DNA of 38,228 bases. Origin: a bacterium. GTDB lineage: Bacteria; Cyanobacteriota; Vampirovibrionia; Gastranaerophilales; Gastranaerophilaceae. The stretch is from NCBI GenBank assembly GCA_017467605.1, contig JAFUSQ010000028.1:1-38228 (forward strand), written 5' to 3'. Below the pieces are notes generated by a model that was not told where the DNA came from, did not search any database, and was given only the letters and a program-made list of their open reading frames with translations. The position numbers were made by a program, and so were the translations under genes. This document shows, piece by piece, positions 3,371-22,348 of the stretch (position 1 is the first letter of the stretch; every line of letters begins with the position of its first letter).

Positions 3371-4150
3371 ATGAAAAAAAAAGGATTTACACTCGCACAA
3401 GCTCCTCGCCGGAGCGGGTATTCTGCCATCAACATTAGTAAGACTACACAATTATTGCGCTCCGCGGGGTTTACCCTTGCAGAAGTCCTGATAACCCTCG
3501 GCATAATTGGGGTTGTCGCAGCAATGACTATACCGACATTACTCGCAAATATAAATGGACAACGCTATCGCTCACAATTTAAAAAAGCTATTTCAACACT
3601 ATCACAAGCTGCCCGTATGGCAGATGCCCAATACGGATTTGATTATGCAGGGATTGATGTACATGCTTATGAAAGAACAGAAACCGAAAAAAGAAGTGCA
3701 AACCCGGAAACCGAAAAATCTATAGCTGCATTATTTAACGGAACATTAACCGGGATACAATATCTAGGGGGAGTTGATGCATGGGTGGGGGGTTACGGTT
3801 ATATTGGAGGACCGGATATAACTGTTTCTCATGACAATGTTTACCAAGACCAAGATGCATATCAATTATCTGACGGAACTATAATAGGGATTGAGTTTGG
3901 CACTGGTGGGTGCACAAAAGATAGCATGTGTGAAGGTTTTATAGATGTAAACGGATTCACTCTGCCAAATAAGGAAGTAACTTGTTCTGACGGTAAAGAT
4001 ACAGTAAGTTTAAACAAAGATAATTATGAGGATTGCGTTGTTAAAAATGATGCACAACATATGACAGATATTTTCCCCATATATTTTTATGACAGTATAG
4101 TAATTCCAAAAACAAACGCAGCAAAGTATGTACTTAATACTGCAAAATAG
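3371..4150 (+). CDS. Prepilin-like secreted protein 1, with duplicated cleavage motif
   Basis: A type IV pilin/pseudopilin-like protein of 259 aa starting after an AAGGAAG ribosome-binding site. Residues 33-57 carry the class III signal G|FTLAEVLITLGIIG plus the hydrophobic helix. The same motif appears first at residues 5-9 (KKKG|FTLAQ), so the normal short leader is followed by a 28-residue, 84-bp insertion and a second motif. Only the second has the Glu at mature position 5 that pilin assembly normally needs, so cleavage probably occurs before Phe34. The globular part has paired cysteines (GGCTKDSMCEGF, VTCSDG, YEDCVV) and ends TNAAKYVLNTAK. That tail is shared with prepilins 2 and 3 in this window. 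No pilus assembly genes lie nearby. Specific role unknown. Confidence 0.9.
   Translation: MKKKGFTLAQAPRRSGYSAINISKTTQLLRSAGFTLAEVLITLGIIGVVAAMTIPTLLANINGQRYRSQFKKAISTLSQAARMADAQYGFDYAGIDVHAYERTETEKRSANPETEKSIAALFNGTLTGIQYLGGVDAWVGGYGYIGGPDITVSHDNVYQDQDAYQLSDGTIIGIEFGTGGCTKDSMCEGFIDVNGFTLPNKEVTCSDGKDTVSLNKDNYEDCVVKNDAQHMTDIFPIYFYDSIVIPKTNAAKYVLNTAK
3398..3481 (+). other. 84-bp in-frame insertion in prepilin 1
   Basis: The block separates two copies of the GFTLA codons (3383-3397 and 3467-3481). It is GC-richer than its surroundings and has inverted arms CGGAGCG (3410-3416) and CGCTCCG (3458-3464). Prepilins 2 and 3 lack it. The pattern fits insertion of a small palindromic element with duplication of the target codons. 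Confidence 0.6.
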
Positions 4151-7742: not shown

Positions 7743-8438
7743 ATGAAAAATTTAAAAAATGGATTTACTCTTGCGGAAGTACTTATTACACTGGGCGTAA
7801 TCGGAGTTGTCGCGGCAATGACAATCCCGACATTGATTGCAAATATTAACGGACAACGTTACAGAAGCCAATTCAAAAAGACACTGTCTACACTAAACCA
7901 GGCAGGTAGAATGGCACAAGCACAGTATGATTTTAGTTTTGCTGATATTGATGTTCAGGGTTGGAGGCAAACTAAAGAAGAAATAGAAAAAGCAAACCCC
8001 GAAACAGAAAAATCACTTGCCGCAATATTGAATGGTACAATAACAGGCATAACATACATTATACATAATGCTACTTCCGATGCTCCATATAAGCAAATAA
8101 ACGCGACTCTCACCAAAAACACCCTAATCGGTGATTATGACGGTTGGCTCTTACCTGATGGAGCACTTGTTATGTTTAGCGTAGGAATTGATGGTTACTG
8201 TGATAATTTAGACGAACGATGCGAGGGATTTATAGATGTAAACGGAATATCTTTACCAAATAAAGAAGTATCTTGTTCTTCAGGTGAAACTAAAACTATT
8301 TGGAATGAAGATTACGAAGAATGTGTTGTGAAAAACAATGCAAATGATATGACAGATATTTTTCCTATCGTAATATACAAAAATCAAGTTATTCCTGCAA
8401 CAAATGCAGCAAAATATGTTTTAGATACAACTAAATAA
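7743..8438 (+). CDS. Prepilin-like secreted protein 2
   Basis: A 231-aa prepilin with the short leader MKNLKNG, cleavage motif G|FTLAEVLITLG and a hydrophobic helix to about residue 30. The globular C-terminal half has cysteines matching prepilin 1 (YCDNLDERCEGF, VSCSSG, YEECVV) and ends TNAAKYVLDTTK. By eye, much of the helix and the following 40 residues match prepilin 1, so the two are recent paralogues; this one lacks the 84-bp insertion. The RBS AGAAGG precedes ATG 7743. A bidirectional hairpin follows. Surface pilin or minor pseudopilin; substrate or adhesive role unknown. Confidence 0.93.
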   Translation: MKNLKNGFTLAEVLITLGVIGVVAAMTIPTLIANINGQRYRSQFKKTLSTLNQAGRMAQAQYDFSFADIDVQGWRQTKEEIEKANPETEKSLAAILNGTITGITYIIHNATSDAPYKQINATLTKNTLIGDYDGWLLPDGALVMFSVGIDGYCDNLDERCEGFIDVNGISLPNKEVSCSSGETKTIWNEDYEECVVKNNANDMTDIFPIVIYKNQVIPATNAAKYVLDTTK

Positions 8439-8651: not shown

Positions 8652-8888
8652 ACACACCTACACAACACAATATTTACTTCACATATATATAAAAACATTA
8701 AACTCTCATTTTTTGCCATATATAAAGAATTTGTTACAAACTTAGCAGTTTTAAATATTAGCCGGTTGAATAAGTAATTTTACTAATGTTTTAAGCTTCG
8801 CAAAAAGTACATAATCTGGTATAAGTTTGTTTTTTAAATAAAACTTTTGTTTATTTTAAACAAAACTCACACAAACAAGGAGGTAAAA

Positions 8889-10886
8889 ATGTCAATTAAA
8901 AAACTAACTCTGGCAGCTGCGATTGCCGTTGGAATAGCAACGAGTTCCTTGAATTCAGCAATGGCAGCCTGCCCTTGCAGTTCAACAGAAAAGTTGCCTG
9001 TTGTAACGGGTCCGGCTTGTCCTTTAGAAACTGCTCAACCACAGACTACTTGCTCAAAATGTAAGAGAGCAAAATCTGATTGTGGTTGTAAAAAACATCG
9101 CAAAGTTTATCGTAAAAGCGGCTGTAACGACGATATCAGTTGTGACAGAACATCAGGACCTTCAACTGCATTGTGTCCTCAATCAGGTAAACCATCAAGA
9201 GCAGACATGAAACAAGTTTACGGTTATCCGCAAGCAATTTATGGTACAAACAACTATGTCGGAGAACCTGCAAACTCAATTTTCTCAACAGAAGCAGCAC
9301 TAAATGGTTACAATTGTCCGTCTGATGGTATGATATCAGGTATTAGCGGAACAACTATTACAAGAGATGGCCAAATTACTGGGGCAGCAGCCCAAATGCC
9401 TTGTCTGAACGAATGTCCTGACAGATACAATGGTGTTATGATTGATCGTAATAACAGAAAAATGGACGGAAATGCTTGTCCTATAGATTTTCAATCATCA
9501 AATTCAATTAATGCGGTCAAAAAATCATTAGTTCCTTATGAAATTCCGCAGCAAATCCAAAATATCACAGGTGCAGCATCACCCTTAGGCGGCTGCATGT
9601 TCCCTGATGTTCCAAATAGCCATTGGGCAGCGTGTGATATTGATAAATTAGCTATTAATGATGTTGTTGTAGGTTATCCTGACGGATTATTCAAGCCTAA
9701 CAAAAATATATCAAGAGCAGAATTTGCAACAATGCTTGTTAAAGGTTTTAATTTAACTCCAAGTTACGGTGCAAAAACTCAATTTACTGACGTTGCACAA
9801 AATAACTGGGCAAATGCCGCAATTGCAAAGGCTGTAGATGAAGATTTATTAGCAGGTTATCCAAATAAAACATTCAGACCAAAAGCACCTGTAACACGTG
9901 TTGAAGCTTTAACTTCAATTGCAAAAGGTATGACTTGTGATATGGATCAATGCAAGGCTGATGAAATTTTAAGCAAATACTCTGACGGGAACAAAATTCC
10001 CGGCTGGGCAAGAATTCCTGTTGCTAAATCTTTGCAAAACGGTGCTTTAAAGGATTCTCCTGTACCTAATATGATTATGCCTAATAAAGATGCTTCTCGT
10101 GCAGATATAGCTTCAATGATGCAAACAGTTCGTGTCGCTTTAGGATACGATACAAACCCTCAAACTGCACACAATGCTTGTCCTGCATGCCCGATAGAAA
10201 AAAATGCGTTGATTGAACGCGAAGAAATCGTAAAAATTCCTACATTGAAATTATCAATGATAGACCAATTGACAGCAAAATCATCTCATGTCGGACAATA
10301 TTTCAGAGCAAACACTCTTGAAGATGTCACAATCAACGGTGTAACATATCCATGCGGCTCAACTGTTACAGGTCAAGTTGTAGAAGTTATCAGACCTTCA
10401 GGCTGCGAAAAAGGCGCATTAAAACTTGCATTTACTGAAATCAAAAACGGTGATTGTAAAACAAAATTACCAAAACAAATTCTACAAGCACAAGTTAACA
10501 AATCAAAACAAGTTAACCCTGTTGCAAGACTTGTTGAAATGCCATTCACATGGGCAGGCTCACTTGTCGGTGTTGTAGGAAGAACTGCAGGCGGTATTTT
10601 AACTAACGTAGGTAACGCAGCAGAAAATGTTTCAAACAACGCAGGTTATACTTTAGGACACGTTTTCCAAGGTCAATTCGGTGCGGCATCAAGAAACCTT
10701 GCAACAGGTATCTTTGAAACAGTCAAAGCTCCGGTTGACGTTACAAGAACAGCACTTTCAGGTACAATGGGCTTGTTCCAAACAACCGGCGACGAATTTG
10801 CTTACCTTGTAGACCCGCGCGGATACAAAATCTCAGCAGTTAACCCTCGCGAACACTTAACAATCGCATTTGGCTGCAATGAGTAG
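8889..10886 (+). CDS. Secreted triple-SLH envelope protein
   Basis: Starts at ATG 8889, just after AAGGAGGT; the product is 665 aa. Residues 1-26 form a signal peptide ending AMA|A. Residues 27-90 are cysteine-rich and basic (ACPCSS, CSKCKRAKSDCGCKKHRK). Three S-layer homology repeats follow at about 238-290 (FPDVPNSHWAACDIDKL), 298-350 (FTDVAQNNWANAAIAKA) and 363-420 (more divergent). SLH repeats bind secondary cell-wall polymer on peptidoglycan. From about residue 451 comes a beta-rich domain (YFRANTLEDVTINGVTYPCGS...) like that in the 344-aa protein at 16675, then a glycine-rich hydrophobic region. The architecture suggests a link between peptidoglycan and outer membrane, as with cyanobacterial SLH proteins, but there is no OprB barrel. 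Function is inferred. Confidence 0.88.
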   Translation: MSIKKLTLAAAIAVGIATSSLNSAMAACPCSSTEKLPVVTGPACPLETAQPQTTCSKCKRAKSDCGCKKHRKVYRKSGCNDDISCDRTSGPSTALCPQSGKPSRADMKQVYGYPQAIYGTNNYVGEPANSIFSTEAALNGYNCPSDGMISGISGTTITRDGQITGAAAQMPCLNECPDRYNGVMIDRNNRKMDGNACPIDFQSSNSINAVKKSLVPYEIPQQIQNITGAASPLGGCMFPDVPNSHWAACDIDKLAINDVVVGYPDGLFKPNKNISRAEFATMLVKGFNLTPSYGAKTQFTDVAQNNWANAAIAKAVDEDLLAGYPNKTFRPKAPVTRVEALTSIAKGMTCDMDQCKADEILSKYSDGNKIPGWARIPVAKSLQNGALKDSPVPNMIMPNKDASRADIASMMQTVRVALGYDTNPQTAHNACPACPIEKNALIEREEIVKIPTLKLSMIDQLTAKSSHVGQYFRANTLEDVTINGVTYPCGSTVTGQVVEVIRPSGCEKGALKLAFTEIKNGDCKTKLPKQILQAQVNKSKQVNPVARLVEMPFTWAGSLVGVVGRTAGGILTNVGNAAENVSNNAGYTLGHVFQGQFGAASRNLATGIFETVKAPVDVTRTALSGTMGLFQTTGDEFAYLVDPRGYKISAVNPREHLTIAFGCNE

Positions 10887-11311: not shown

Positions 11312-12223
11312 ATGAAAAGATTAACATTATTAATTTTGGTTTTAAGTATAGTTTCTTGTTGCTGCGCCATAGCATCAACTTATAAGGTAAACACCTCAGG
11401 TGTAGTAAAAACCCCGACAGGAAAGGTTATTTCTTCACCCTCAAATGCAGTTAATCAAAATTATTATAATAATTTTAGTGCACCTAATTATATAAGCTCA
11501 AATCAAGTTAATTCAGGTAATGTGGATACTATAGAGATTGTTATGGATTATTCCGGAAGCATGGCAAATTGGATTGGCGTAGCAAAAAGAAGTATGGCTT
11601 CTATTATTGCACAAATTCCAAACTCAACAAAATTGGGGTTTAGAGTATTCGGGCACGATAATTACGGGAATAATCCGTCAAATATAAACACTATTCAAGA
11701 TATAAAACAAATTGTAAAAAAAGGAAATAAAATTTCCGTTATAACCCAAAAAGGGCCTTTAGGTTCAACATCAGGTGTTTGTAGCGCAACCCAACAAGTT
11801 GCAGGAGTTGTTAGTGCAAATGAAGCAGCATTAATAAACGGAATGAATTCTGTCGGAATAGGCGGTGCAACGCCATTGGTTTACGCTCTGGACAGGGCAG
11901 TTTATCAGGATTTTTCAGTTTTTGACACAACAAGCCCAAAAAAAATTGTACTTATAACAGACGGCGGAGAAAATTGCGGAGGTGATCCTTGCGCATTTGC
12001 CAGAAAACTAATGAGCAAAAGAAGTGATATACATATTGATGTAGTTTTGGTTTCTTCAAATTCAAGAGCATTAAGCTGCTTAGCTTCAACAACGGGCGGT
12101 CATTTTTATAATATTGATAATTTGACTGATTTTTCCGGCACTTTAACCCGTTCAATCCAGGCTCAACCCACAATTGCACCAAAACAACAAACCCAGCAGC
12201 AATATGAATTTATAAAAGACTAA
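11312..12223 (+). CDS. VWA-domain lipoprotein
   Basis: A 303-aa protein from ATG 11312 (AAGGG 8 bases upstream; extended -10 TGATATAAT at 11281-11289). The N-terminus MKRLTLLILVLSIVSC has a lipobox I-V-S-C16, so export and lipidation are likely. The VWA domain begins at about residue 72 with a complete MIDAS motif, D79-Y-S81-G-S83. It continues with the conserved Thr (GGATPLVYAL) and Asp (LITDGGENC) and ends at about residue 285; a glutamine-rich tail follows. Domains of this type bind protein partners through a divalent metal. The gene converges on the six-gene minus-strand operon with a 4-base overlap, and that operon encodes another VWA protein. They may work together, but this is inferred. 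Confidence 0.9.
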   Translation: MKRLTLLILVLSIVSCCCAIASTYKVNTSGVVKTPTGKVISSPSNAVNQNYYNNFSAPNYISSNQVNSGNVDTIEIVMDYSGSMANWIGVAKRSMASIIAQIPNSTKLGFRVFGHDNYGNNPSNINTIQDIKQIVKKGNKISVITQKGPLGSTSGVCSATQQVAGVVSANEAALINGMNSVGIGGATPLVYALDRAVYQDFSVFDTTSPKKIVLITDGGENCGGDPCAFARKLMSKRSDIHIDVVLVSSNSRALSCLASTTGGHFYNIDNLTDFSGTLTRSIQAQPTIAPKQQTQQQYEFIKD

Positions 12224-13458
12224 TTTAGAGAAATTTCAAAGTTTCCATTGTAAAATTTAACACTAAAGGTTAAAGTTTCATTTTTATAACCTTCCGGAGG
12301 TGCATTAAATGTCGGGGTAGACATCATTGCTAAATAAACTGCATCATTTAATGTTATATTTGATGATTGCTGCGAAAACTTACGTTCAATAAGCTTTCCG
12401 CTCGAATTAATTTTAAATGTTACGGAACAATTGCCGTCCCCTACTACGTTTGCAAAATTAATTTTCTTCCCGAGAGTGTTCCTTAATGAGGCTTTGTAAG
12501 CATTTAATTCCTGCTTTAATTCAGCAGAACTTTTTACAGGAATTTCTGTTTTTTGACGCAAAACAGGTTTTGCAGTTTGAGTTTGAGTTTGAGCCTGTAC
12601 TTGTGATTGAACATGAGCCTGAGAAGGAGCACTATTTACAGTTGTATGCACAGATTTATTAGATTGAACAACAGAAGATTTCTTTGCCGCTTGCGAATTT
12701 TGAGAACTAGCCTGAGCATTTTTTTGAATTCTTGCAAGTAAATCTTTTGTCGCCTTATCTTGAGGAGATGAAGGCATATTAACAACAGGTTTTGCTGCAG
12801 AATTTGTTACGGGTTGAGTTTTTTTAGAAACTTGTTGTGTATTATTTTTTTGAATAGCGTTAGTTTTAGGAGGTTGAACAGTCACAGGCTTAACTGCTTG
12901 TGTTTGAACAGGTTGTTTGTGTTCAACAGGCGGTTCTTGAACTTCTGTTTTCTTTAAAAAATCTTCAATCATCTTAACAGGATCTTTTATTTGATTTTCT
13001 TCCTCAGATTGAATTTCCTTTTTCATATTTTGTTCAATCACAGGGGGAGTATTATCCCAAAAATCATCAACTGACGGAATATTTTGGCTTATTTGTTCAT
13101 TTTTTGGAGTTTCATTATCGGAAGATTTAATTTTATCTTCAGGATTACCGACAAACGCCACCACAATGCCGGACAAGACCAAACATAAAATAAATATAAT
13201 TAAAGAAATCGGATCAAGGGATTTTTTTAATCTTGAGAATTCCGGATACTGTTCATCAAAAGATTTTACTTTTTCTACTCTTACGGATTGCTTAGATATA
13301 ACTTTTATTTCAGGAGTTTTATGAAATTCTTTTTTAACATTTGATGGATTAACACCATTTTTAGCAATGTTTTTTATTTCTTCGAAAATATCATTACCAC
13401 AATCACAATAGTCCGGTTTAATTTCAAATTCAGTTCCGCATTCTACACATTTAAACAT
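12220..13458 (-). CDS. Zinc-ribbon, single-pass TonB/TolA-like protein
   Basis: A 412-aa protein and the last gene of the operon. Residues 1-22 form a small zinc ribbon (C4-x2-C7 ... C18-x-C20), which would be cytoplasmic. A single transmembrane helix follows at about 84-104 (ISLIIFILCLVLSGIVVAFVG). A long Pro/Gln/Lys/Val-rich linker (about 110-310) could span the periplasm. The C-terminal 95 residues (ELKQELNAYKASLRNTLGKK, then NCSVTFKINSSGKLIERKFS) resemble the TonB/TolA C-terminal fold: a helix, then strands with the G-x-(V/L)-x-x-x-x pattern. TonB-like proteins transmit inner-membrane energy or contact outer-membrane partners. The coding sequence starts 2 bases after the upstream gene ends. 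Confidence 0.8.
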   Translation of the reverse strand: MFKCVECGTEFEIKPDYCDCGNDIFEEIKNIAKNGVNPSNVKKEFHKTPEIKVISKQSVRVEKVKSFDEQYPEFSRLKKSLDPISLIIFILCLVLSGIVVAFVGNPEDKIKSSDNETPKNEQISQNIPSVDDFWDNTPPVIEQNMKKEIQSEEENQIKDPVKMIEDFLKKTEVQEPPVEHKQPVQTQAVKPVTVQPPKTNAIQKNNTQQVSKKTQPVTNSAAKPVVNMPSSPQDKATKDLLARIQKNAQASSQNSQAAKKSSVVQSNKSVHTTVNSAPSQAHVQSQVQAQTQTQTAKPVLRQKTEIPVKSSAELKQELNAYKASLRNTLGKKINFANVVGDGNCSVTFKINSSGKLIERKFSQQSSNITLNDAVYLAMMSTPTFNAPPEGYKNETLTFSVKFYNGNFEISLN

Positions 13459-13460
13459 TA

Positions 13461-14384
13461 TTAACGGGAAATCCTTTCTATATCATTATAATCTTGAGGA
13501 GTACTGTATTTAGCAGTATCAGACAATTTCCAGGCTCCTTGTGCTACGGTTGTTATTCTGCTTGAACCGGTTGGGAAATTCAAAATTGAACGGCCCTGAT
13601 AGCTTCTTATCACAGGTGCTATATATTGAATCGCATAAGGTGTATATTTTGAATCAGTTGACCAAGTTTTTACGTTCGTTACCTTTCCGTATTTATCAAC
13701 CGTAAAAGAGTATTTGAAAACAATTCCGTTCGGAAGATTAGGCAAAGCTACATCTGACATTAACTTATTTTGCAGATTAGAACGCCATATGTTCCAAGCA
13801 ATTTCTTCCTGCTGAGGAGTAACAGTGTTTGATTTTATTGGTTGCGGAGCCTGCGTAACTTTTTGAGGTGCAGGAGCAGTTGTTATTTGAACATCTTTTA
13901 TCTTAGATGTTGTTTGATTAGGAATCGGGGCAGTATTTACAATAGGTAAAGACTTTTGGGTTTCTTGAATTTTTTTATTATTAGCAACAATCTTATTTAA
14001 ATCAATCTGAGGAGTTTGAGATTTTAGCGCAACATTTTGGGTAACGGTTTTAGGTTTAGTTACATTAGTTTGATTTGTAACAGTAACATTTTTTTCTTTC
14101 ACTGGTTGATTATAAATTGGCTTTTGGGGATAATTTACAACTGTTTTTTGAGAAGAAGTTTCAACATCAAATGTCTTAATAGTTCTTGGAATATATACCG
14201 AATTCTGTTCAACAGTCGGTAATACTTCAACACTTTCAGTTTTTGCTTCCTGTTCAGGCTCAATTGTAAATTCTGAACTATAAACCAAAACAGACTTGTG
14301 CATTTGAGGTTTCATCATACAAATGCACACAGTCGAAATAAATGCCAATATTAATAGTATTGATAAAAATAATCTGTAATTCAT
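13461..14384 (-). CDS. Single-pass TonB-like protein with KPQMHK motif
   Basis: A 307-aa protein. Its N-terminal transmembrane helix (residues 5-23) runs directly into MMKPQMHKSVLVYSSEF. Residues 45-190 form a Thr/Pro/Gln/Val-rich linker. The C-terminal 110 residues (WNIWRSNLQNKLMSDVALPN, then IVFKYSFTVDKYGKVTNVKT) fit a TonB-like domain. The start overlaps the stop of the upstream gene in TAATG, so translation is probably coupled. The juxtamembrane KPQMHK is shared with the small membrane protein at 17709-17966, pointing to a common origin or a common partner. Function within the operon is unknown. Confidence 0.78.
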   Translation of the reverse strand: MNYRLFLSILLILAFISTVCICMMKPQMHKSVLVYSSEFTIEPEQEAKTESVEVLPTVEQNSVYIPRTIKTFDVETSSQKTVVNYPQKPIYNQPVKEKNVTVTNQTNVTKPKTVTQNVALKSQTPQIDLNKIVANNKKIQETQKSLPIVNTAPIPNQTTSKIKDVQITTAPAPQKVTQAPQPIKSNTVTPQQEEIAWNIWRSNLQNKLMSDVALPNLPNGIVFKYSFTVDKYGKVTNVKTWSTDSKYTPYAIQYIAPVIRSYQGRSILNFPTGSSRITTVAQGAWKLSDTAKYSTPQDYNDIERISR

Positions 14385-15982
14385 TAATCTCTGTCTGATT
14401 TAGCTACTAATTCTTCACAAGCAAACGTTTCAAATTTTGTTTGGCTCAACATAAATGTTTCGGCAATCAATAATGCAGTCGGAACAAGTGCCGCTACGGC
14501 AGATAATAATATACCACCTAAATCACCGCCGATTGACTGCATAAAATATGAAACGTTCATAGAAAATTCAATTATAATAATCGCTATGCCGATTATAAAA
14601 GATCTTCTCATTTCAGTATCAAGTTTTTTTACACCTTCAAGTCCGTATATTTCAACTCCATGTTGTATAAAATTACTAAAACCGTCTTGTTTTAAAACAT
14701 TTGAAGCTTGAATTTTTTTATTACAGAAAAATCCGTTAACAAAAGAGAAAAAGGCAAATATAATTAAAAAAGTTGCCAAGACTAAAAATATCGGACTTAA
14801 TCTTAAACCTGAAATTCTTATCCAACCTGCAGCCTCAGGGAAACACATAGCCAAAGTATTGGAAACACCATAAGCCAAAAATGGCGCAGTTAAAATACCT
14901 AACAATGTTTCACCCATAGATTTCACAAACAAATTAAATTGTTTATCTTTAGCAGAGCGTATTTTAGCAGGAGATAAAGTATTTGCATACCTTTCTATCC
15001 ATTGTTGATATTCTTTTATAACGTGTTCAAAATCTTCTCTGTATTCATATTCGTCCAATTCTTTGCGGGTTACGGCATTAGAATGTTTAAAATATCCGCA
15101 AGCCATAGCTAATGTTGCACAAGTTCCTACAAAGAATAAAGAAATCAATACGGCAAATAAAGAAATAGTTTTTGGTGCTAAGTAATATAAAACATTTATT
15201 AAATAAATCGCAACAAAAAATATTGAAGCTAAACAAATCATAAATTTTTCAGCAATAGTTGAAGTTGTGGTATCTTCGCCCAATTTATTTTGTAAAAACA
15301 AATAAATTCCCTGCTTTAAAATTAAACCTACTCCAAAAACTATTAAAGCATATATAAATATTAATTTTAAATTTGTAGGCATTTGAATAACACTTCCTGC
15401 ATCACTCAACGGTAAACCTGTCAAATAATTTGAAACCCCGAAAGCACAAACAAATGAAGCTAAAAATAATGCCACATGAAGTAAAATTCCGCCTTTTGAA
15501 TTCATTGAGATTTTACGTTTTAATTCATTAATTTTTGCTCCTACTTCTTTTATAATTGAAACTCTTGCTTGTTCAATTTCAGATTTTCTTTTTTCGATTT
15601 TCAATCTGGCAGCAGGATTAATGTCATTTCCGTATATCGCGCGAATATCATCTTCCGTCATTTGTTCCTGAGCAATTTCACGATTTACGGTACTGCCCAG
15701 AATTTTAATTGTTATAAATTCATCAGAACCGTCAGCCATAATCTTACAAACCTTATCTATCTCAAGTCTTGCAGGAATAGGCTTTCCTTTGAACAAAAAC
15801 TTTTGATTATTAAATTGATTTAAAAGTACACACTTATTTGTTTTTGGATCATATTGAACCGTTAACATAAATTCAAAACCTGTATTAACCTGAAAATCAA
15901 ATCCGGGTTTTGAACTAATATTTATAAGTTCTTTGTCGGAAAAGGTTTTTTCGTTATTTTTTGAAATAATTGTAAATGCCAT
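14384..15982 (-). CDS. Polytopic membrane protein with possible FHA-like N-terminus
   Basis: A 532-aa protein with a good AAGGAAT ribosome-binding site. Residues 1-95 are soluble and beta-rich (NTGFEFMLTVQYDPKTNKCV, then FNNQKFLFKGKPI and SDEFITIKIL). They recall the FHA-like domains at the N-termini of secretion-system components, although I see no phosphothreonine-binding motif. After a helical segment (about 115-160), about nine hydrophobic helices span residues 165-520. They are interrupted near residue 300 by a charged cytoplasmic-type region (RKELDEYEYREDFEHVIKEY). This is the largest integral membrane component of the operon and the natural candidate for its core channel, scaffold or motor. 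No transporter family is recognised. Confidence 0.75.
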   Translation of the reverse strand: MAFTIISKNNEKTFSDKELINISSKPGFDFQVNTGFEFMLTVQYDPKTNKCVLLNQFNNQKFLFKGKPIPARLEIDKVCKIMADGSDEFITIKILGSTVNREIAQEQMTEDDIRAIYGNDINPAARLKIEKRKSEIEQARVSIIKEVGAKINELKRKISMNSKGGILLHVALFLASFVCAFGVSNYLTGLPLSDAGSVIQMPTNLKLIFIYALIVFGVGLILKQGIYLFLQNKLGEDTTTSTIAEKFMICLASIFFVAIYLINVLYYLAPKTISLFAVLISLFFVGTCATLAMACGYFKHSNAVTRKELDEYEYREDFEHVIKEYQQWIERYANTLSPAKIRSAKDKQFNLFVKSMGETLLGILTAPFLAYGVSNTLAMCFPEAAGWIRISGLRLSPIFLVLATFLIIFAFFSFVNGFFCNKKIQASNVLKQDGFSNFIQHGVEIYGLEGVKKLDTEMRRSFIIGIAIIIIEFSMNVSYFMQSIGGDLGGILLSAVAALVPTALLIAETFMLSQTKFETFACEELVAKSDRD

Positions 15983-15995
15983 ATATTATTCCTTT

Positions 15996-16664
15996 CTATC
16001 TTCCTATTGCTTTCAAAAATCTTAAATTTGCTTTATCAACATTTTCACTATTTGCAATGATAAGTTTTTTCTCCCCCAATACAGGATTTAATTTGGTTTT
16101 CACTAAATCCAACTTTTCAGGCGGCGCATACACGAACATCATTGCCAATTCCGGAATATATTGTTGAGCTTTTTTTATATTATCAGGCAAAATTTGCCAA
16201 TTAATCCTTGCCGAAGCAGGACCTTCATCAGCCAAATCACCCACAACCACAATTGAAGGAACAAATCCTTCCTTTTTCATTGTTAAAGTATAATTAACCG
16301 CTTTTTTTAAAGCCTGAGAATATGCAGTTTCATCAATTCCGCCCTCAGACTTTGTAAAGGCAGAAATTGCATTATTTATTCCTTTTGTATCACCGGGAGA
16401 ACCTTCGTAAATTAAATAAGAACTATTTGCTGTTTTTAATATCTTGACAGAATCTTCAGGATCTAATATTGCACATAAAGACTTTATATATTTAATTTCT
16501 TCCGGAAGCATTTTTTGATTAGATTGAGATGAGTCTAATATAAAAATTACCGAAGCTTTATGGAACTCATCAACTTTAATATTACGGCTCAAAACGAACA
16601 AAAACTTACCGACAATTGCGGTTAGTAAAATTAAAAATCCGATTTTGATAAGTCTTTTATTCAT
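15996..16664 (-). CDS. Membrane-anchored VWA-like protein
   Basis: A 222-aa protein with RBS AGGTGG before ATG 16664. A transmembrane helix at residues 7-26 is followed by an outward-facing VWA-like domain: first strand ASVIFILDSSQSN containing D44-S-S46-Q-S48 (MIDAS pattern), and SIVVVGDLADEG as a later strand with the conserved Asp. It ends NLRFLKAIGR. It is smaller than the VWA lipoprotein at 11312-12223 and not closely similar. The gene lies 10 bases after the upstream gene. A metal-dependent adhesion or assembly role is inferred from the domain. Confidence 0.8.
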   Translation of the reverse strand: MNKRLIKIGFLILLTAIVGKFLFVLSRNIKVDEFHKASVIFILDSSQSNQKMLPEEIKYIKSLCAILDPEDSVKILKTANSSYLIYEGSPGDTKGINNAISAFTKSEGGIDETAYSQALKKAVNYTLTMKKEGFVPSIVVVGDLADEGPASARINWQILPDNIKKAQQYIPELAMMFVYAPPEKLDLVKTKLNPVLGEKKLIIANSENVDKANLRFLKAIGR

Positions 16665-16674
16665 AAATTACCAC

Positions 16675-17709
16675 CTAATAAGAACTAACCGTAGCATTGA
16701 ACGGTTTCGTAAGTGTCAGTTCCAATTCAGTAAAAGAAGGAATTTCGGCATCAACGCCATGTTCTGCGGTTGCACCAATTAACGCTCCGCCGGCACCAAC
16801 TCCGGCTCCGATAGCGGTAGAAGTTCCGATATTTGTTGAAGATGACATTGCACCGACTAATAAGCCTAACAATGCCCCAACAACTGCACCTGTAACAGCA
16901 CTTTTAACGGTTCCGGCGACTTTCCCGTCATTTGTGACGGTAAAATCGACTTTTTCGGTTGAAATACTATAAGTTCTGTTATCCGGAGTAACCAATTGAT
17001 TAAATTCTATTACTACTCTGCCATTTCTTGAACCGTAAGTTGCGTGACGTGCAGTAGTAAGTGTTCCATATATCAAGCTTCCTTGAGGTGCAATTGTATA
17101 GCCGTTATATTTCAAATCATCAGTAAGAACAACTATTACCTGATCTCCCTTTTGCGCGGTTGCCGTATTGATAGAATTTTGTAAATAAGTATTCAATTTA
17201 GTTCCCGCCGTAACTTGTGCAACATAACCGCTATATGTAGTCGGCTGCACAGTTTGAGTTTTATTAACAGGAGTCAAATGTATTTCTTCTTCGTCATCAA
17301 AATTATATCTGTATAAATCATTTTGAGACATAAGTTTTTGAGCTAAATTATCATAAATATTTATAATATTTGTATTATATGATTGTTCATAAACAATACC
17401 GTAATTCTTAACCCCTTTTAATATTGTATTATTAATTTTTTTATTATCGTTAGATTGATAATAATAGAACATATTTTGTCCGCTTTGCTGCAAAATTACA
17501 ACTGCATAATCCTGATTATTTTTATAAGAAACGCCATAATAAGGACTAGTTTTAATCAATTGAAAATTTTGAGAAGAAAAAGCATTAGCAACAAGAGGAT
17601 TTATCGTTGTTTCGTTTGTATTTTTAAGATAATACAATTCGCTAAACGCCAAAGCCGAATTTGCAGCAAGATAAAAAAGTGTTATAATCAGTGCAAATAT
17701 TTTTTTCAT
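16675..17709 (-). CDS. Secreted protein with TrbI-like beta domain and glycine zipper
   Basis: A 344-aa protein with signal peptide MKKIFALIITLFYLAANSAL|A (cleavage near residue 21). Residues 22-150 are a soluble domain of unknown type. Residues 155-255 look like the beta domain of TrbI/VirB10-type proteins (KLNTYLQNSINTATAQKGDQ, then APQGSLIYGTLTTARHA and GRVVIEFNQLVTPDNRTYSI). A glycine-zipper membrane segment follows at about 263-310 (VTGAVVGALLGLLVGAMSSS, AIGAGVGAGGALIGA). The SLH protein at 8889-10886 has the same order at its C-terminus. Its start overlaps the upstream stop in TAATG. It probably sits in the outer membrane or periplasm. Confidence 0.78.
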   Translation of the reverse strand: MKKIFALIITLFYLAANSALAFSELYYLKNTNETTINPLVANAFSSQNFQLIKTSPYYGVSYKNNQDYAVVILQQSGQNMFYYYQSNDNKKINNTILKGVKNYGIVYEQSYNTNIINIYDNLAQKLMSQNDLYRYNFDDEEEIHLTPVNKTQTVQPTTYSGYVAQVTAGTKLNTYLQNSINTATAQKGDQVIVVLTDDLKYNGYTIAPQGSLIYGTLTTARHATYGSRNGRVVIEFNQLVTPDNRTYSISTEKVDFTVTNDGKVAGTVKSAVTGAVVGALLGLLVGAMSSSTNIGTSTAIGAGVGAGGALIGATAEHGVDAEIPSFTELELTLTKPFNATVSSY

Positions 17710-17966
17710 TACTTCACATCTTTTCTTAATATAGTTTTAGTTGTTTGTTTTGTTGTAGTCATAGAACCGTCATCATTAATCTTGATAAAGTATTCAATAA
17801 CATCAATAGAAAAAGGCTTGTGCATCTGAGGTTTTACAACACAAATACCCAGAGTTATCAAAATTGCCATAAGTGCAATTATTATACCGGCAAGTTTCAA
17901 CGGTAAGAATTTAATTAACGCAAAGGCAATAGCCAAAATTAAAAGTAAAAATATCGCTAAACCCAT
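17709..17966 (-). CDS. Two-helix membrane protein with KPQMHK motif, first gene of the envelope operon
   Basis: An 85-aa protein from ATG 17966, 6 bases after AAGGAAGT; an upstream start at 17999 would add an unlikely charged extension. Two hydrophobic helices (about 2-20 and 25-44) are followed by a 40-residue soluble tail starting VVKPQMHKPFSIDVIEYFIK and rich in Thr and Lys. The tail motif matches that of the TonB-like protein at 13461-14384. It opens a six-gene run in which the largest gap is 13 bases, so all six are probably one transcript. Function unknown. Confidence 0.75.
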   Translation of the reverse strand: MGLAIFLLLILAIAFALIKFLPLKLAGIIIALMAILITLGICVVKPQMHKPFSIDVIEYFIKINDDGSMTTTKQTTKTILRKDVK

Positions 17967-18054
17967 ACATACTTCCTTTTCCTTAACTAAATTATACATA
18001 TAAAAGAATAGAAAGAGTAAAATTTATTTAAAAATTTTACAATTAATAGAATCA

Positions 18055-18147
18055 CAATATTGTTCAAAGTCCGTTAAGACCGATAAGACCGTTAAGTCCA
18101 ATACGGTGCTAAAGCACAAATTAATAAATCGTAAATGTCATTGCGAG
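18055..18147 (+). repeat. 93-bp dispersed repeat R5, copy A
   Basis: First of three copies (18237-18329 and, truncated by the window end, 38159-38228). Near its left end are three imperfect 9-mers in tandem: GTTAAGACC, GATAAGACC, GTTAAGTCC. The right end is ATGTCATTGCGAG, which leads into other repeat families. The 18.0-18.7 kb stretch has no convincing gene and consists almost entirely of such repeats. Confidence 0.85.
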
Positions 18148-18148
18148 C

Positions 18149-18211
18149 GAGGAACATTCTACTCCCTCGCCCCTTGTGGGAGAGGGTTGGGGTGAGGGGG
18201 CAGCATGTCAT
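18149..18211 (+). repeat. CCCTCGCCCCTTGTGGGAGAGGG palindrome (family R2), copy 2
   Basis: GC-rich block AGGAACATTCTACTCCCTCG...GGGGGCAGCATGTCATT. Its reverse complement recurs at 19995-20061 including the flanking AGGAACATTCTA and CAGCATGTCATT, so the mobile unit is longer than the palindrome alone. Confidence 0.85.
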
Positions 18212-18236
18212 TCAGAGGGCGAAGCCCGAAGAATCT

Positions 18237-18329
18237 CAATATTGTCCAAAGTCCGTTAAGACCGATAAGACCGTTAGGTCCAATACGGTGCTAAAGCACA
18301 AATTAATAAATCGTAAATGTCATTGCGAG
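18237..18329 (+). repeat. 93-bp dispersed repeat R5, copy B
   Basis: Differs from copy A at only a few positions and has the same length and orientation, 182 bp away. It is preceded by GAAGAATCTC, as is the copy at 38159. Confidence 0.85.
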
Positions 18330-18403
18330 GAAGGGGTAAATGTACGAACTTTTAAATTTGCTTTATTTACCCCCGTTGCAATCGCAACACCTTGCAAAAC
18401 TTG

Positions 18404-18441
18404 CATGTCATTGCGAGGGAGGAACAACCGAAGCAATCCAG
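18404..18441 (+). repeat. CATTGCGAGG...GAAGCAATCC repeat (family R1)
   Basis: Complete copy of a short element whose ends ATTGC / GCAAT are inverted. Others lie at 19958-19998 (reverse) and 38089-38123. Similar sequences occur between genes in many bacteria and are often mistranslated as small proteins. Confidence 0.8.
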
Positions 18442-18451
18442 TTGATGTGTT

Positions 18452-18560
18452 ACCCTGAACTCGTTTCAGGGGCTATATTTAAAATAGATTCTGAATCACC
18501 GAGTAGGAACAGAAAATTATGTTTCGCAAGCTCAACTAATTTTCTAGTCAGTTCAGAATG
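18452..18560. repeat. Composite CCTGAA/TTCAGG repeat (family R3)
   Basis: ACCCTGAACTCGTTTCAGGGGCT followed by a larger inverted pair (ATTCTGAA at 18490 with TTCAGAAT at 18552) enclosing an AAAATTA / TAATTTT stem. The left part matches the reverse complement of 19892-19945, including the CTATATT..A..AGATTCTGAA spacer. Confidence 0.7.
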
Positions 18561-18568
18561 ACATGACC

Positions 18569-18607
18569 GTACCCCACCCTAACCCTCCTCCATTTGGGGA
18601 GGGAAGT
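18569..18607 (-). repeat. Divergent CCCTCC..GGAGGG palindrome (family R2), copy 3
   Basis: ACCCCACCCTAACCCTCCTC then CATTTGGGGAGGGA. It is the copy most like the one embedded in clpB in its ATTTGGGGAGG side. Confidence 0.65.
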
Positions 18608-18658
18608 AATGTAGGTTGTGTACTTGTCCAACACGTAACTATTTTGCATTAATGTAGG

Positions 18659-18678
18659 TCGGCATTGCTATGCCGACA
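18659..18678. repeat. GTCGGCAT-TGCT-ATGCCGAC palindrome (family R4)
   Basis: Perfect 8-bp arms. The exact reverse complement, with flanking GTAGGTC, lies at 29204-29223. It sits just after the end of prepilin 3 and could double as its terminator. Confidence 0.8.
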
Positions 18679-18690
18679 GTAAATTTACCC

Positions 18691-19491
18691 CTATTTTGCA
18701 GTATTCAAAAGATATTTGCCTGCGTTTGTTGCAGGTTCTACTGCTCCATCGTGGAATACTACAGGAATTACATCACTGATATTTTTATTACTAACAACAC
18801 ATGGATTTTGCGGGTCTAACGCTGCAGTACCGTCTGCGCATGTTACTTCTTTGTTTGGTAATGAAGTTCCGTTTACATCAATGAATCCAATACACTGCTT
18901 TAATCCTGGGGTAAATCCCGCCTGAGAACTCATCTCAGCATTTCTAGCAAGATTTGTAGAACTTAATACTTCACCTGCAGACAAAGAACAATATTCCAGA
19001 GCATAATTAAAACCCAAAATAGCACCATCTGGTAATTGGTATAATAAATTATGACTTGCATAGCCATATCCACCCCAATTAGTAATTTCAGGACTATAGT
19101 CGGAATAGCTGAATATAGTAGAACCAAAACTTCTTATACGTCCGACAAAACTTGCCCCTTTAAGCGTTCCATTGAGTAGTGCACACATCGTTTTTGTCGT
19201 TTCAGGGTTATCCGAAGCACATGAATTATCTCTACCAGCACCTTCTATAGCACCAAAATCCCAATCATATTGTGCTTGAGCCATTCGACCTGCTTGGTTG
19301 AGGGTTGATAATGTTTTTTTGAATTGACTTCTCACCCTTTGACCTTGGATATTTGCAATTAGTGTCGGAATAGTCATTGCTGCAACAACTCCAATTATAC
19401 CGAGTGTAATCAACACTTCTGCGAGTGTAAACCCATCATTTTTCTTTAGTTCAATCAATGACTTACGTAAAAATTTGTAGTACTTTTTCAT
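18691..19491 (-). CDS. Prepilin-like secreted protein 3
   Basis: A 266-aa prepilin with a longer, basic leader of 20 residues (MKKYYKFLRKSLIELKKNDG), cleavage motif G|FTLAEVLITLGIIG and hydrophobic helix. After the helix, NIQGQRVRSQFKKTLSTLNQ continues the match to prepilins 1 and 2. The middle is longer and glycine/serine/tyrosine-rich (ITNWGGYGYASHNLLYQLPD). The end carries CIGFIDVNG, VTCADG, PCVVS and TNAGKYLLNTAK. The ribosome-binding site GGAGGC precedes ATG 19491. The gene is divergent from an XRE regulator with 110 bp between starts. Confidence 0.93.
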   Translation of the reverse strand: MKKYYKFLRKSLIELKKNDGFTLAEVLITLGIIGVVAAMTIPTLIANIQGQRVRSQFKKTLSTLNQAGRMAQAQYDWDFGAIEGAGRDNSCASDNPETTKTMCALLNGTLKGASFVGRIRSFGSTIFSYSDYSPEITNWGGYGYASHNLLYQLPDGAILGFNYALEYCSLSAGEVLSSTNLARNAEMSSQAGFTPGLKQCIGFIDVNGTSLPNKEVTCADGTAALDPQNPCVVSNKNISDVIPVVFHDGAVEPATNAGKYLLNTAK

Positions 19492-20096: not shown

Positions 20097-20660
20097 TTAT
20101 TTTGTTTCTTTTTTTGAAGCTTTATCTTCAGAAACTTCCTCTTTTTCAGAATCCACTGAGTCACTTTCTTCTGCTTCTTCAACTTCTTCTTCTGAATCAG
20201 AATTATCTTCTTCAATATCTTCTGTATTTTCTTCGGTTTCGTTTTCTTCTTCGGAAGCATCTTCATCAGATTCTTGAGCTTCTTCTGTTTCAGCTTCTTC
20301 TTCGACTTCTTCTGCTTCGGTTTCTTCTTTTTCTTTGTCCTCTTTTTCCAATTCAGCCTTAATTTCAGCTTCATCTTTTGCACGAATTACAGGAATAGAA
20401 AGCATCAAAGCCATTTGATCTCCGTCTTGATCTAAATTAAGTTCAAGAGCTTCCTTATCCATTTCAACATATTTGGAAAGAAGTTCGACAAGTTCTTTTC
20501 TCATACGCTGCAAAAGCTCAGGTGTCAAATTGGTTCTATCTTGCATTAGAACAACGCGAAGTCTGTTTCTTGCAACATCTTTTGCATTTTCTTCTTTTTC
20601 GGTTTGTTTGAAAAGGCTCAAAACCTTATTATATAGTTCTCTTAAAATATTATCGCCCAT
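20097..20660 (-). CDS. minE: MinE with a long acidic C-terminal tail
   Basis: MinE is the topological factor that stimulates MinD ATPase and sets up pole-to-pole oscillation, which confines the Z ring to midcell. Residues 1-100 fit the family: AKDVARNRLRVVLMQDRTNL is the MinD-contacting segment, then LLQRMRKELVELLSKYVEMD and the beta strand MALMLSIPVI. Usual length is about 90-110 aa. Here about 85 further residues are almost entirely Glu, Asp, Ser, Ala and Lys (EEVEEEAETEEAQESDEDAS) with no hydrophobic core. The ribosome-binding site AAGGAG overlaps the minD end, and only one base separates the genes. The tail is in frame and has no internal stop; its role is unknown. Confidence 0.93.
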   Translation of the reverse strand: MGDNILRELYNKVLSLFKQTEKEENAKDVARNRLRVVLMQDRTNLTPELLQRMRKELVELLSKYVEMDKEALELNLDQDGDQMALMLSIPVIRAKDEAEIKAELEKEDKEKEETEAEEVEEEAETEEAQESDEDASEEENETEENTEDIEEDNSDSEEEVEEAEESDSVDSEKEEVSEDKASKKETK

Positions 20661-20661
20661 A

Positions 20662-21477
20662 TTACTTCTCCTTACCTACAAGTTTAGAGAAGAATTTTTT
20701 AACCTTAGCCACAACGCTTGTTTCTTCTTCCAAGTTCAAAAACGGAACATCTTCACCCATAATACGTCTTGCAACATTTCTGTATGCAGTACCCGCAAGA
20801 GATTTTTCATCATTAACAATAGGTTCACCTTTGTTTGTTGATGTAATAATTCCTGTATCTTCCGGAATAATTCCGATAAGTTCAGCCGATAATATTTCAA
20901 CAACATCATCAACACTCATCATATCGTTTGATTTGATTAAGTTAGGTCTTACTCTGTTGATTAAAAGTTTGTAAGATTTAATTTCTTCTTTAGCTTCCAA
21001 AAGTCCGATAATTCTATCTGCGTCCCTAACTGCGGACATTTCAGGTGTTGTTACAACGATAGCTTCAGAAGCCCCTGCAACCGCGTTTTGGAAACCTTGT
21101 TCGATTCCCGCAGGACAGTCAACAAGAATAAAATCATAATCTTTTTTCAATTTTTCGCATATATCTTTTAATTGTTCTTCCGTTACTGCGGTTTTATCTC
21201 TTGTTTGAGCCGCAGCAAGCAAGCACAAATTAGGATTTTTCTTATCTTTAACAAGAGCTTGTTTAAGTTTGCAGCGTTCTTCAACGACATCAACGATTGT
21301 ATAAACAATTCTGTTTTCCAACCCTAAAAGCAAGTCAAGGTTACGCAATCCTAAATCCGTATCAATCATTACAACCTTGTTTCCGGCTCTTGCAAGTGCC
21401 GTTCCGATATTAGCGTTTGTTGTAGTTTTTCCTACACCGCCTTTTCCGGACGTAATTACTATAACTCTACCGGTCAT
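20662..21477 (-). CDS. minD: MinD septum-site ATPase
   Basis: A 271-aa membrane-associating ATPase that recruits MinC and is displaced by MinE. The deviant Walker A motif with signature lysine is SGKGGVGKTT at residues 10-19. DTDLGLRNLDLLLGLENRIV, LVDCPAGIEQGF and TTPEMSAVRDADR are typical. The C-terminal amphipathic helix (VAKVKKFFSKLVGKEK) is the membrane-targeting sequence. It lies between minC (10 bases) and minE (1 base). Confidence 0.99.
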   Translation of the reverse strand: MTGRVIVITSGKGGVGKTTTNANIGTALARAGNKVVMIDTDLGLRNLDLLLGLENRIVYTIVDVVEERCKLKQALVKDKKNPNLCLLAAAQTRDKTAVTEEQLKDICEKLKKDYDFILVDCPAGIEQGFQNAVAGASEAIVVTTPEMSAVRDADRIIGLLEAKEEIKSYKLLINRVRPNLIKSNDMMSVDDVVEILSAELIGIIPEDTGIITSTNKGEPIVNDEKSLAGTAYRNVARRIMGEDVPFLNLEEETSVVAKVKKFFSKLVGKEK

Positions 21478-21487
21478 ATATTTCTCC

Positions 21488-22348
21488 TTAATTTCCTTCG
21501 TGAATTTTTCTTATTACAATACTTCCTTTATATGTAAATGCTTCTTCCGGAATATATTCGCTAGTTTTTTGAATATACGGAAGATTAACCGTATCCGGTC
21601 TGCGTGCAAATACTTCTCCTATTCTTATTTGAACAGGATTAAGTTTTAGAGCGCGAATTCGGGCATAATTATTACCGTCAGAACCGGCATGAGCAATACC
21701 GCCCAAAATACCCCAAACAGTAATATCGCCTTTAGCAATTATTTCCGCACCAGGATTTACATCACCAATAATTACCATATTTCCGTCAGATGATATGCTT
21801 TGTCCTGAACGAATTGTTTTTCTTAAATATAAAGTCGGAAGATTTTCTGCTTCATTTTTCTTTGCAGTAATTTCTTCGTCTGTTTCTTCTTTTAGCTCTT
21901 GAGCTTCAACTTGTCCTGCAATAAATTCGTTATTTTGAATTATCGGAGATATTTCGTTATCTTCTTTTTTAGTATTCTCTCCATCTTCTCCAAAAATGTG
22001 ATCTAATGCATTTGAAACTTCTTCTGTCGGTTCATTTTCAGTAAATGTCGGAGCTTCAATCTGTTCCGTAAATTCTGAAATTTTAATATCCAAAGCCGTT
22101 GCAGATTCTAATGTAACCTCAGAACTTGTACTGATAAATGCAAGTTGAGATTCCATCAATTCAACCAAAGTTTTTATACTTGTTAATTCTGATTGAGAAA
22201 GATTAACAGAACCAAGTTTTAAGCAAATATGTTTGTCTTTAGATTCAGGCATGTCCAAGACTCTTGAAAGTTCATAAATGATTTCAGAAGTCTTTTTAGC
22301 CCCCGTCAAATCGACAATAAATCCATTGTCTATATATCCCTTATCCAT
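21488..22348 (-). CDS. minC: MinC septum-site inhibitor
   Basis: A 286-aa inhibitor of FtsZ assembly. The N-terminal 100 residues resemble the MinC N-domain (LKLGSVNLSQSELTSIKTLV) but are divergent. An acidic linker (about 105-165) follows. The C-terminal domain is a clear right-handed beta helix that binds MinD: RKTIRSGQSISSDGNMVIIG, DVNPGAEIIAKGDITVWGIL, GGIAHAGSDGNNYARIRALK, then QIRIG. First gene of minCDE, the order found in cyanobacteria and other bacteria. Confidence 0.96.
   Translation of the reverse strand: MDKGYIDNGFIVDLTGAKKTSEIIYELSRVLDMPESKDKHICLKLGSVNLSQSELTSIKTLVELMESQLAFISTSSEVTLESATALDIKISEFTEQIEAPTFTENEPTEEVSNALDHIFGEDGENTKKEDNEISPIIQNNEFIAGQVEAQELKEETDEEITAKKNEAENLPTLYLRKTIRSGQSISSDGNMVIIGDVNPGAEIIAKGDITVWGILGGIAHAGSDGNNYARIRALKLNPVQIRIGEVFARRPDTVNLPYIQKTSEYIPEEAFTYKGSIVIRKIHEGN

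Follow-up and report, generated by a model that had tools for sequence, protein, structure and literature searches.

A conserved six-gene envelope operon of Gastranaerophilales with TonB-like and VirB10-like proteins: a candidate trans-envelope complex

The DNA analysed here, called the window throughout, is a stretch of 38,228 bases from a contig (labelled C79) of a Gastranaerophilales genome of 2.19 Mb that is 96.5% complete. It contains an operon of six genes on the minus strand, g1 to g6, spanning positions 12220–17966, and a seventh gene, g7, on the plus strand, which is convergent with g6 and overlaps it by 4 bases. Reading of the sequence confirmed the tight packing of the six genes that had been claimed by the first-pass annotation, a set of predictions made from the sequence alone: the successive intergenic distances are -1, 10, 13, -1 and 2 bases, and the junctions g1/g2 and g4/g5 are TAATG overlaps. 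About 690 bases upstream of g1 carry no gene on the same strand, and scans for promoters and terminators gave matches at no more than chance level. This upstream region (18000–18690) is non-coding and contains repeated segments whose translations (RPLWERVGVRGQ and similar) resemble sequence at the loci L200 and L204; the segments likely represent a dispersed repeat. The genes and their parts are as follows.

17709–17966, minus strand: g1, small membrane protein of 85 amino acids with a conserved transmembrane (TM) helix and the motif KPxMHKPFxxNxIEY
16675–17709, minus strand: g2, secreted protein with signal peptide, alpha/beta domain and a domain like the C-terminal domain of VirB10
16678–17232, minus strand: residues 160–344 of g2, fold of the VirB10/TrbI C-terminal domain (AlphaFold2 (AF2) model, fold search)
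16789–16899, minus strand: residues 271–307 of g2, glycine-zipper helical hairpin at the place of the VirB10 antenna (AF2 model, low predicted local distance difference test (pLDDT) score)
15996–16664, minus strand: g3, N-terminal TM helix and VWA domain, invariant C-terminal AIGR (profile matches, alignment)
14384–15982, minus strand: g4, FHA domain and eight TM helices (AF2 model)
15695–15982, minus strand: residues 1–96 of g4, FHA fold (VIA Z 12.3 to 6ccd)
14396–15496, minus strand: residues 163–529 of g4, two sets of four TM helices (AF2 model and alignment)
13461–14384, minus strand: g5, KPxMHK anchor, Pro/Gln linker and C-terminal domain that is possibly TonB-like (profile alignment)
12220–13458, minus strand: g6, zinc ribbon, TM helix, Pro/Gln linker and TonB C-terminal domain (Pfam)
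12253–12501, minus strand: residues 320–402 of g6, TonB_2 domain (E 1.2e-5, above the Pfam cut-off)
11312–12223, plus strand: g7, secreted VWA protein with an invariant metal-ion-dependent adhesion site (MIDAS) and conserved cysteines (alignment)

The operon is more than a chance arrangement, because its gene order is kept in relatives. Gene content was counted in 78 distinct loci with complete flanks, in which g4 is adjoined by g3 in 75 and by g5 in 77 cases; the cluster includes g2 in 63, g6 in 59, g1 in 46 and g7 in 30 of these loci, and g7 is convergent as in the window in 28 of the 30 loci that contain it. The most frequent arrangement is that of the window, g1-g2-g3-g4-g5-g6 with convergent g7 (19 loci), followed by g1 to g6 without g7 (17 loci) and by the bare core g3-g4-g5 (10 loci). 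Moreover, gene content clusters on the g4 tree, requiring 12 changes compared with 26 in shuffles, and co-inheritance of the gene set is well supported. Across the order Gastranaerophilales g4 was found in 160 of 240 genomes and in 29 of 49 genera, all belonging to one family, and in a class-wide sample all 82 genomes with a g4 match fall in this same family. The exception is an operon g2 to g6 (L045) on an 8.7 kb contig (G051:C152) of a 66% complete genome from another family; it is nested within the tree of the main family and may reflect contamination or transfer. In a scan of GTDB contigs, 334 encoded relatives were detected, and the 80 kept belong to records with the titles Candidatus Gastranaerophilales, Melainabacteria, Cyanobacteria bacterium or uncultured bacterium, including Candidatus Gastranaerophilus phascolarctosicola. 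A few of the relatives' records are titled Acinetobacter and are presumably misnamed bins.

The same data bear on the question whether the operon is one system or two neighbours with separate functions, a core (g3-g4-g5) and an outer-membrane unit (g2, g6, g7). The genome of the window contains a second copy of g4 on contig C76, 43% identical to the first and surrounded only by g3-g4-g5, and such cores also form a separate clade: in the g4 tree the core copies of the own genus are split from the rest by a branch of 1.68 with support 100. At locus L033 one genome carries both locus types, 1.3 kb apart. However, the clade of the window keeps g2 and g6 on either side of the core in the same order in most loci, and the 5'-terminal g1 has its anchor in common with the core protein g5. 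Two functionally separate units are thus considered improbable.

The product of g2 had been described as a secreted protein with a beta domain and a glycine zipper, and this description can now be sharpened to a VirB10-type fold. An AF2 model computed from 54 homologues (mean pLDDT 81; predicted template modelling score 0.45) contains the signal peptide, an alpha/beta domain (residues 21–131), a linker modelled with low confidence and then a beta domain (160–344), in which the helices 271–288 and 294–307 precede the last strands. All 20 fold matches in the PDB with E<1e-3 are C-terminal domains of VirB10/TrwE/CagY/ComB10, and alignment to the X. citri protein by VIA-align resulted in Z 13.2 with a root-mean-square deviation (rmsd) of 2.7 A over 117 residues, clearly above unrelated entries. 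At the sequence level one family member matches Pfam TrbI at 4e-8, TrbI matches lie mostly under the curated cut-off and the Gly-zipper Pfam matches are weak; PDB sequence profiles yielded nothing useful for g2, g3, g4 and g5. The N-terminal alpha/beta domain is KA1/BamC-like (Z 6–8), which is a generic similarity. The outer-membrane pore of VirB10 is built from a two-helix antenna; the N-terminal region of the protein, rich in Pro and disordered, has its anchor in the inner membrane (PMC6536674). The model suggests that g2 retains the VirB10 pore domain without the inner-membrane anchor.

Given this fold, the locus could be a type IV secretion system (T4SS) in minimal or relic form, with the Pro-rich linker and the inner-membrane TM helix of VirB10 perhaps split over g5/g6 and g2 (PMC6536674). 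We searched 28 genomes of the genus with a completeness of at least 95%, hereafter the congeners, and found VirB9 (CagX) and a VirB4-type ATPase in none of the 28, with a control genome positive in each search. The locus itself has no ATPase, and g3, g4 and g6 have no T4SS match. Since ATPase and VirB9 are missing, this explanation is largely refuted and we regard it as very improbable.

The second component that can be assigned to a known family is g6. Four invariant N-terminal cysteines form a predicted cytoplasmic zinc ribbon, which is followed by one TM helix, the Pro/Gln linker and the TonB_2 domain. Pfam recognizes the latter in 43 of 44 family members and the g6 profile matches the TonB of the own genome at E 8e-10; PDB sequence profiles gave only weak TonB matches. 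The first-pass annotation had assigned TonB-like C-termini to two single-pass proteins with Pro/Gln linkers; while this holds for g6, it was an over-reading for g5, for which moderate evidence is available: the C-termini of g5 and g6 align as profiles at E 2e-5, and from this sequence comparison the end of g5 is likely TonB-like. A homology absent from the earlier annotation links g1 to the N-terminus of g5 (hhalign E 4e-12), extending around the TM helix and the following C..KPxMHKP, and the shared anchor suggests a common docking partner. The protein g1 had been called a two-helix membrane protein, which is correct in the window but not a trait of the family, since other lineages have one TM helix and the conserved part is the anchor common to g5.

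The claim that neither ExbB/ExbD nor a secretion ATPase is present stands for the operon, in whose proteins Pfam found no ExbB or ExbD. It does not stand for the genome with respect to ExbB/ExbD, which are encoded at an unlinked locus together with TonB. A single MotA_ExbB gene is present in 27 of the 28 congeners, and in the own genome (contig C69; G000, L200:3232-10652) it lies in a row that encodes a TPR protein, dus, a small g2-like protein, a g2 paralog, TonB, ExbB, ExbD and ExbD. The paralog matches the g2 profile at E 6.6e-42 and directly precedes TonB-ExbB-ExbD-ExbD; rows of the same type were read directly in three further congeners (L201-L203), and in 12 of 28 congeners a TrbI-like match and an ExbB match are no more than 3 kb apart. 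From this linkage and the paralog on C69 it follows that proteins of the VirB10 and TonB types are associated in this lineage. The C69 locus itself can be described as a TonB-type motor locus with two VirB10/TrbI-like proteins where receptors would be. The Plug domain of TonB receptors is missing in 27 of 28 congeners, including the own genome, and TonB proteins are therefore without their usual partner. The sole Plug domain lies at G245:C66:1487-1804 (L207) and could be acquired or stem from a contaminant contig. Thus, TonB-type and VirB10-type proteins are paired twice in a lineage in which the usual TonB partners are missing.

Further known systems were examined as possible matches. TolB (TolB_N) occurs in none of the 28 congeners, which rules against a standard Tol-Pal system, and the VipB/TssC sheath is likewise found in none, E. 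coli serving as positive control for both. For type VII EssC/EccC and type IX GldKLMN no Pfam or NCBIfam match was obtained in the seven proteins, to which this search was restricted, the genome not being searched; Pfam, NCBIfam, PADLOC and PHROGs gave no system-level match for any of the seven. The view that the set belongs to no described system is upheld by the absence of VirB9, VirB4, TolB and the sheath, but has to be qualified because the VirB10-like outer partner relates it to a known secretion family.

The largest membrane component, g4, had been described as a protein of about nine helices with a possible FHA-like N-terminus. An AF2 model from 55 homologues (mean pLDDT 84) shows a beta sandwich (residues 3–94) followed by long helices. 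The sandwich has an FHA fold, aligning with 6ccd over 93 residues at 2.4 A, and this part of the description was correct; the number of TM helices in the model is eight, arranged in two groups of four with a beta-hairpin after the first helix of each group. The usual GR...S..H phosphothreonine pattern is not visible in the consensus, and the ligand residues were not mapped structurally. E358, E472 and N476 are invariant in 55 of 55 sequences, E508 is conserved in 54 of 55, and E472 lies at the middle of a hydrophobic stretch. An internal repeat is suggested by a sequence signal over 38 columns only (E 7e-4). An orphan g4-FHA protein of 99 amino acids is encoded in one genus (L170:9539-9838, L171:8798-9097, L172:9021-9320, L173:9506-9805), beside a cluster of MFS/HlyD-type efflux genes.

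No Pfam family, tested with 18 members, and no PDB sequence family matches g4. A relation to ExbB/MotA was rejected, as the MotA_ExbB domain was not found in these members and the sole match of the genus is the separate ExbB gene. The fold search in the PDB with the whole model was dominated by FHA matches and barely probed the TM part; MATE and ABC transporter folds were rejected (E>0.03, rmsd about 20 A or more), as was a tetraspanin match (0.002) far below the tetraspanin cut-off. These features could fit a new kind of ion-driven inner-membrane motor, in which a path for ions would be lined by the buried E472, E508, E358 and N476, and the core g3-g4-g5, which also occurs alone, would act as a motor-transducer unit that drives the g2 ring through g5/g6 without ExbBD or an ATPase. 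We consider such a motor doubtful.

Another explanation that needs no motor is a complex for envelope tethering or peptidoglycan organisation, in which g5, g6 and g2 would bridge inner membrane, wall and outer membrane without transport, and the g4 FHA domain and the g6 zinc ribbon would couple this bridge to a cytoplasmic division or shape factor. It would agree with the lack of an ATPase or ExbB within the locus and with the generic N-terminal fold of g2, which is compatible with a scaffold role. Moreover, SjdR, a cyanobacterial TonB-like protein, acts in shaping the septal peptidoglycan, and siderophore transport does not require it (PMC8262864). However, the fold family of g2 is pore-forming and the protein carries a glycine-zipper hairpin, and the invariant buried glutamates of g4 would not be needed by a tether. 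A tethering complex is considered unlikely.

Two VWA proteins are encoded at the locus. The annotation of g3 as a membrane-anchored VWA protein with an intact DxSxS motif was borne out: the motif is intact in 90 of 98 sequences, that of the window among them (70 of 78 and 20 of 20 in two groups). A degenerate MIDAS, apparent in a sample of 18 sequences, was dropped on account of these larger counts. In the other protein, g7, the MIDAS set is invariant and cysteines are conserved across 25 members. It had been called a lipoprotein convergent with the operon; the 4-base overlap is real, but as a family g7 proteins are not lipoproteins, as the lipobox cysteine is absent from most members, which carry an AxA site of the signal-peptidase-I type. 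All three full-flank loci without g3 have g7 adjacent, one of them with four tandem copies, which are too few cases to prove that g7 replaces g3. At L183:2672-6439 four tandem g7-like VWA genes are divergent from a g2-g4-g5-g6 operon without g3. The MIDAS, intact in all g7 and most g3 proteins examined, permits an adhesion role. Weak TssR_VWA matches hinted at a type VI secretion system of subtype iii (T6SS-iii), which was rejected as no sheath gene was found in the genus.

FHA, TonB and VWA parts together also recall a force-transducing machine for surface motility or adhesion of the Agl-Glt type, in which the genomic ExbB-ExbD-ExbD would pull the g6/g5 arms, with VWA adhesins outside. To our knowledge, gliding has not been reported in these bacteria, which counts against this explanation. 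The Myxococcus protein GltG, which binds the ExbB-like AglR, combines a TonB C-terminus with an FHA domain in the cytosol (PMC3169522). Here FHA (g4) and TonB (g6) occur in one operon, one ExbB and two ExbD are encoded near a TPR protein, and the MIDAS is intact in most VWA proteins. Unlike in GltG, the two domains are on separate proteins, the ExbB locus is unlinked to the operon, and the Glt outer-membrane barrels were not found, although they were not searched for. We judge a machine of this type to be quite unlikely.

Taking these data together, we propose, with a probability of roughly one half, that the operon products assemble into a Ton-like trans-envelope complex whose outer-membrane ring is of the VirB10 type, the VWA proteins being periplasmic or surface parts. 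Melainabacteria were inferred to be Gram-negative (PMC3787301). In the proposed complex, g4 and g3 would form an inner-membrane platform on which g1 and g5 dock by the KPxMHKP anchor that they share, g5 and g6 would span the periplasm with their long Pro/Gln linkers, and the TonB domain of g6 would contact the g2 ring at the outer membrane, which the glycine-zipper hairpins would traverse like VirB10 antennae. The complex could be energised by g4 itself or by the one ExbB-ExbD-ExbD set that the genome encodes at another locus. Its most likely output would be gating of the g2 ring for export or display of envelope or surface proteins, with g7 as the best candidate cargo. A trans-envelope apparatus had already been predicted in the first-pass annotation; its conserved gene set, inner-membrane core, linker arms, TonB domain and VWA proteins are retained and the outer partner is changed to a VirB10-like protein. 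While the parts list is well supported, the mechanism and the cargo are what we infer from it. All parts other than g1, g4 and g5 belong at least partly to a known family or fold, and g4 does so through its FHA domain only. No description of this gene set was found in the openly licensed literature, and we know of no system that contains it. We accordingly see in it a variant of trans-envelope TonB-type complexes and consider an entirely novel motor in g4 less probable.

Several points weigh against the proposed complex. The contacts between the parts and the energy source are, like the cargo, inferred, and adhesion by the VWA proteins and export of g7 are guesses. The antenna helices of g2 have low model confidence, and g5 gave no relevant Pfam match, TonB included, among 45 members. 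The cluster lacks g2 in 15 of 78 loci, mostly bare g3-g4-g5 cores, and g2 is therefore dispensable for some versions; the whole system is dispensable in genus g22, several genomes of which retain an orphan FHA piece only.

If the proposal is right, TonB-type arms in a gut lineage act on VirB10-type outer-membrane rings instead of TonB receptors, two protein families that are usually studied separately become linked, and the uncultured gut Gastranaerophilales possess a dedicated envelope machine. It makes testable which role TonB has in bacteria that possess it together with ExbBD while being almost devoid of TonB-dependent receptors.

Further genes were noted in and outside the window. An SLH-domain protein of this lineage is encoded at 8847–10886 and another at L204:4392-5666 on contig C33; the latter also has a TrbI/VirB10-like C-terminal domain, for which the protein of the window gave a marginal match only. 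Three type IV pilin-like proteins are scattered in the window (3371–4150, 7743–8438, 18691–19491), with nearly identical N-termini of the form GFTLAEVLITLGxIGVVAAMTIPTL. Genes for MinE-, MinD- and MinC-like proteins lie in a row at 20097–22348, and the MinE-like protein ends in a long acidic tail of about 90 residues.

Among known systems, VirB10/TrbI/ComB10 of the T4SS outer-membrane core resemble g2 in the C-terminal fold and in the two-helix insertion at the antenna place, but g2 differs in its N-terminal domain, starts with a signal peptide and has no inner-membrane anchor, and the genus lacks VirB9 and VirB4. The TonB-ExbB-ExbD system is matched by the TonB_2 domain of g6 after a TM helix and Pro/Gln linker; in contrast to it, g6 adds a cytoplasmic zinc ribbon, the operon has no ExbB/ExbD, g4 has no ExbB match and the genus is almost without TonB receptors. 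Bacteroidota T6SS-iii TssNOPQR likewise has a VWA protein next to a polytopic core and periplasmic proteins with a single TM helix (PMC10781749); however, the genus has no VipB/TssC, TssN has five TM helices and no FHA domain, and the TssR_VWA matches are weak. SjdR of Anabaena is, similar to g6, a one-TM protein of the cyanobacterial lineage with a cytosolic N-terminus and a Pro-rich periplasmic part (PMC8262864), but it has no TonB C-terminal domain and no operon of SjdR partners is described; in phylogenetic terms it is the nearest precedent for TonB-like proteins with a role other than transport. For FHA, TonB and one ExbB with two ExbD, the nearest functional analogue is the Agl-Glt gliding and sporulation machinery of Myxococcus (GltG, GltJ, AglRQS), which shares the cytoplasmic FHA domain, the TonB C-terminus and the genomic ExbB with two ExbD. 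GltJ contains a zinc ribbon as well. Here, however, FHA is on an eight-TM protein and TonB on another one, and VWA and VirB10-type parts are undescribed in Agl-Glt.

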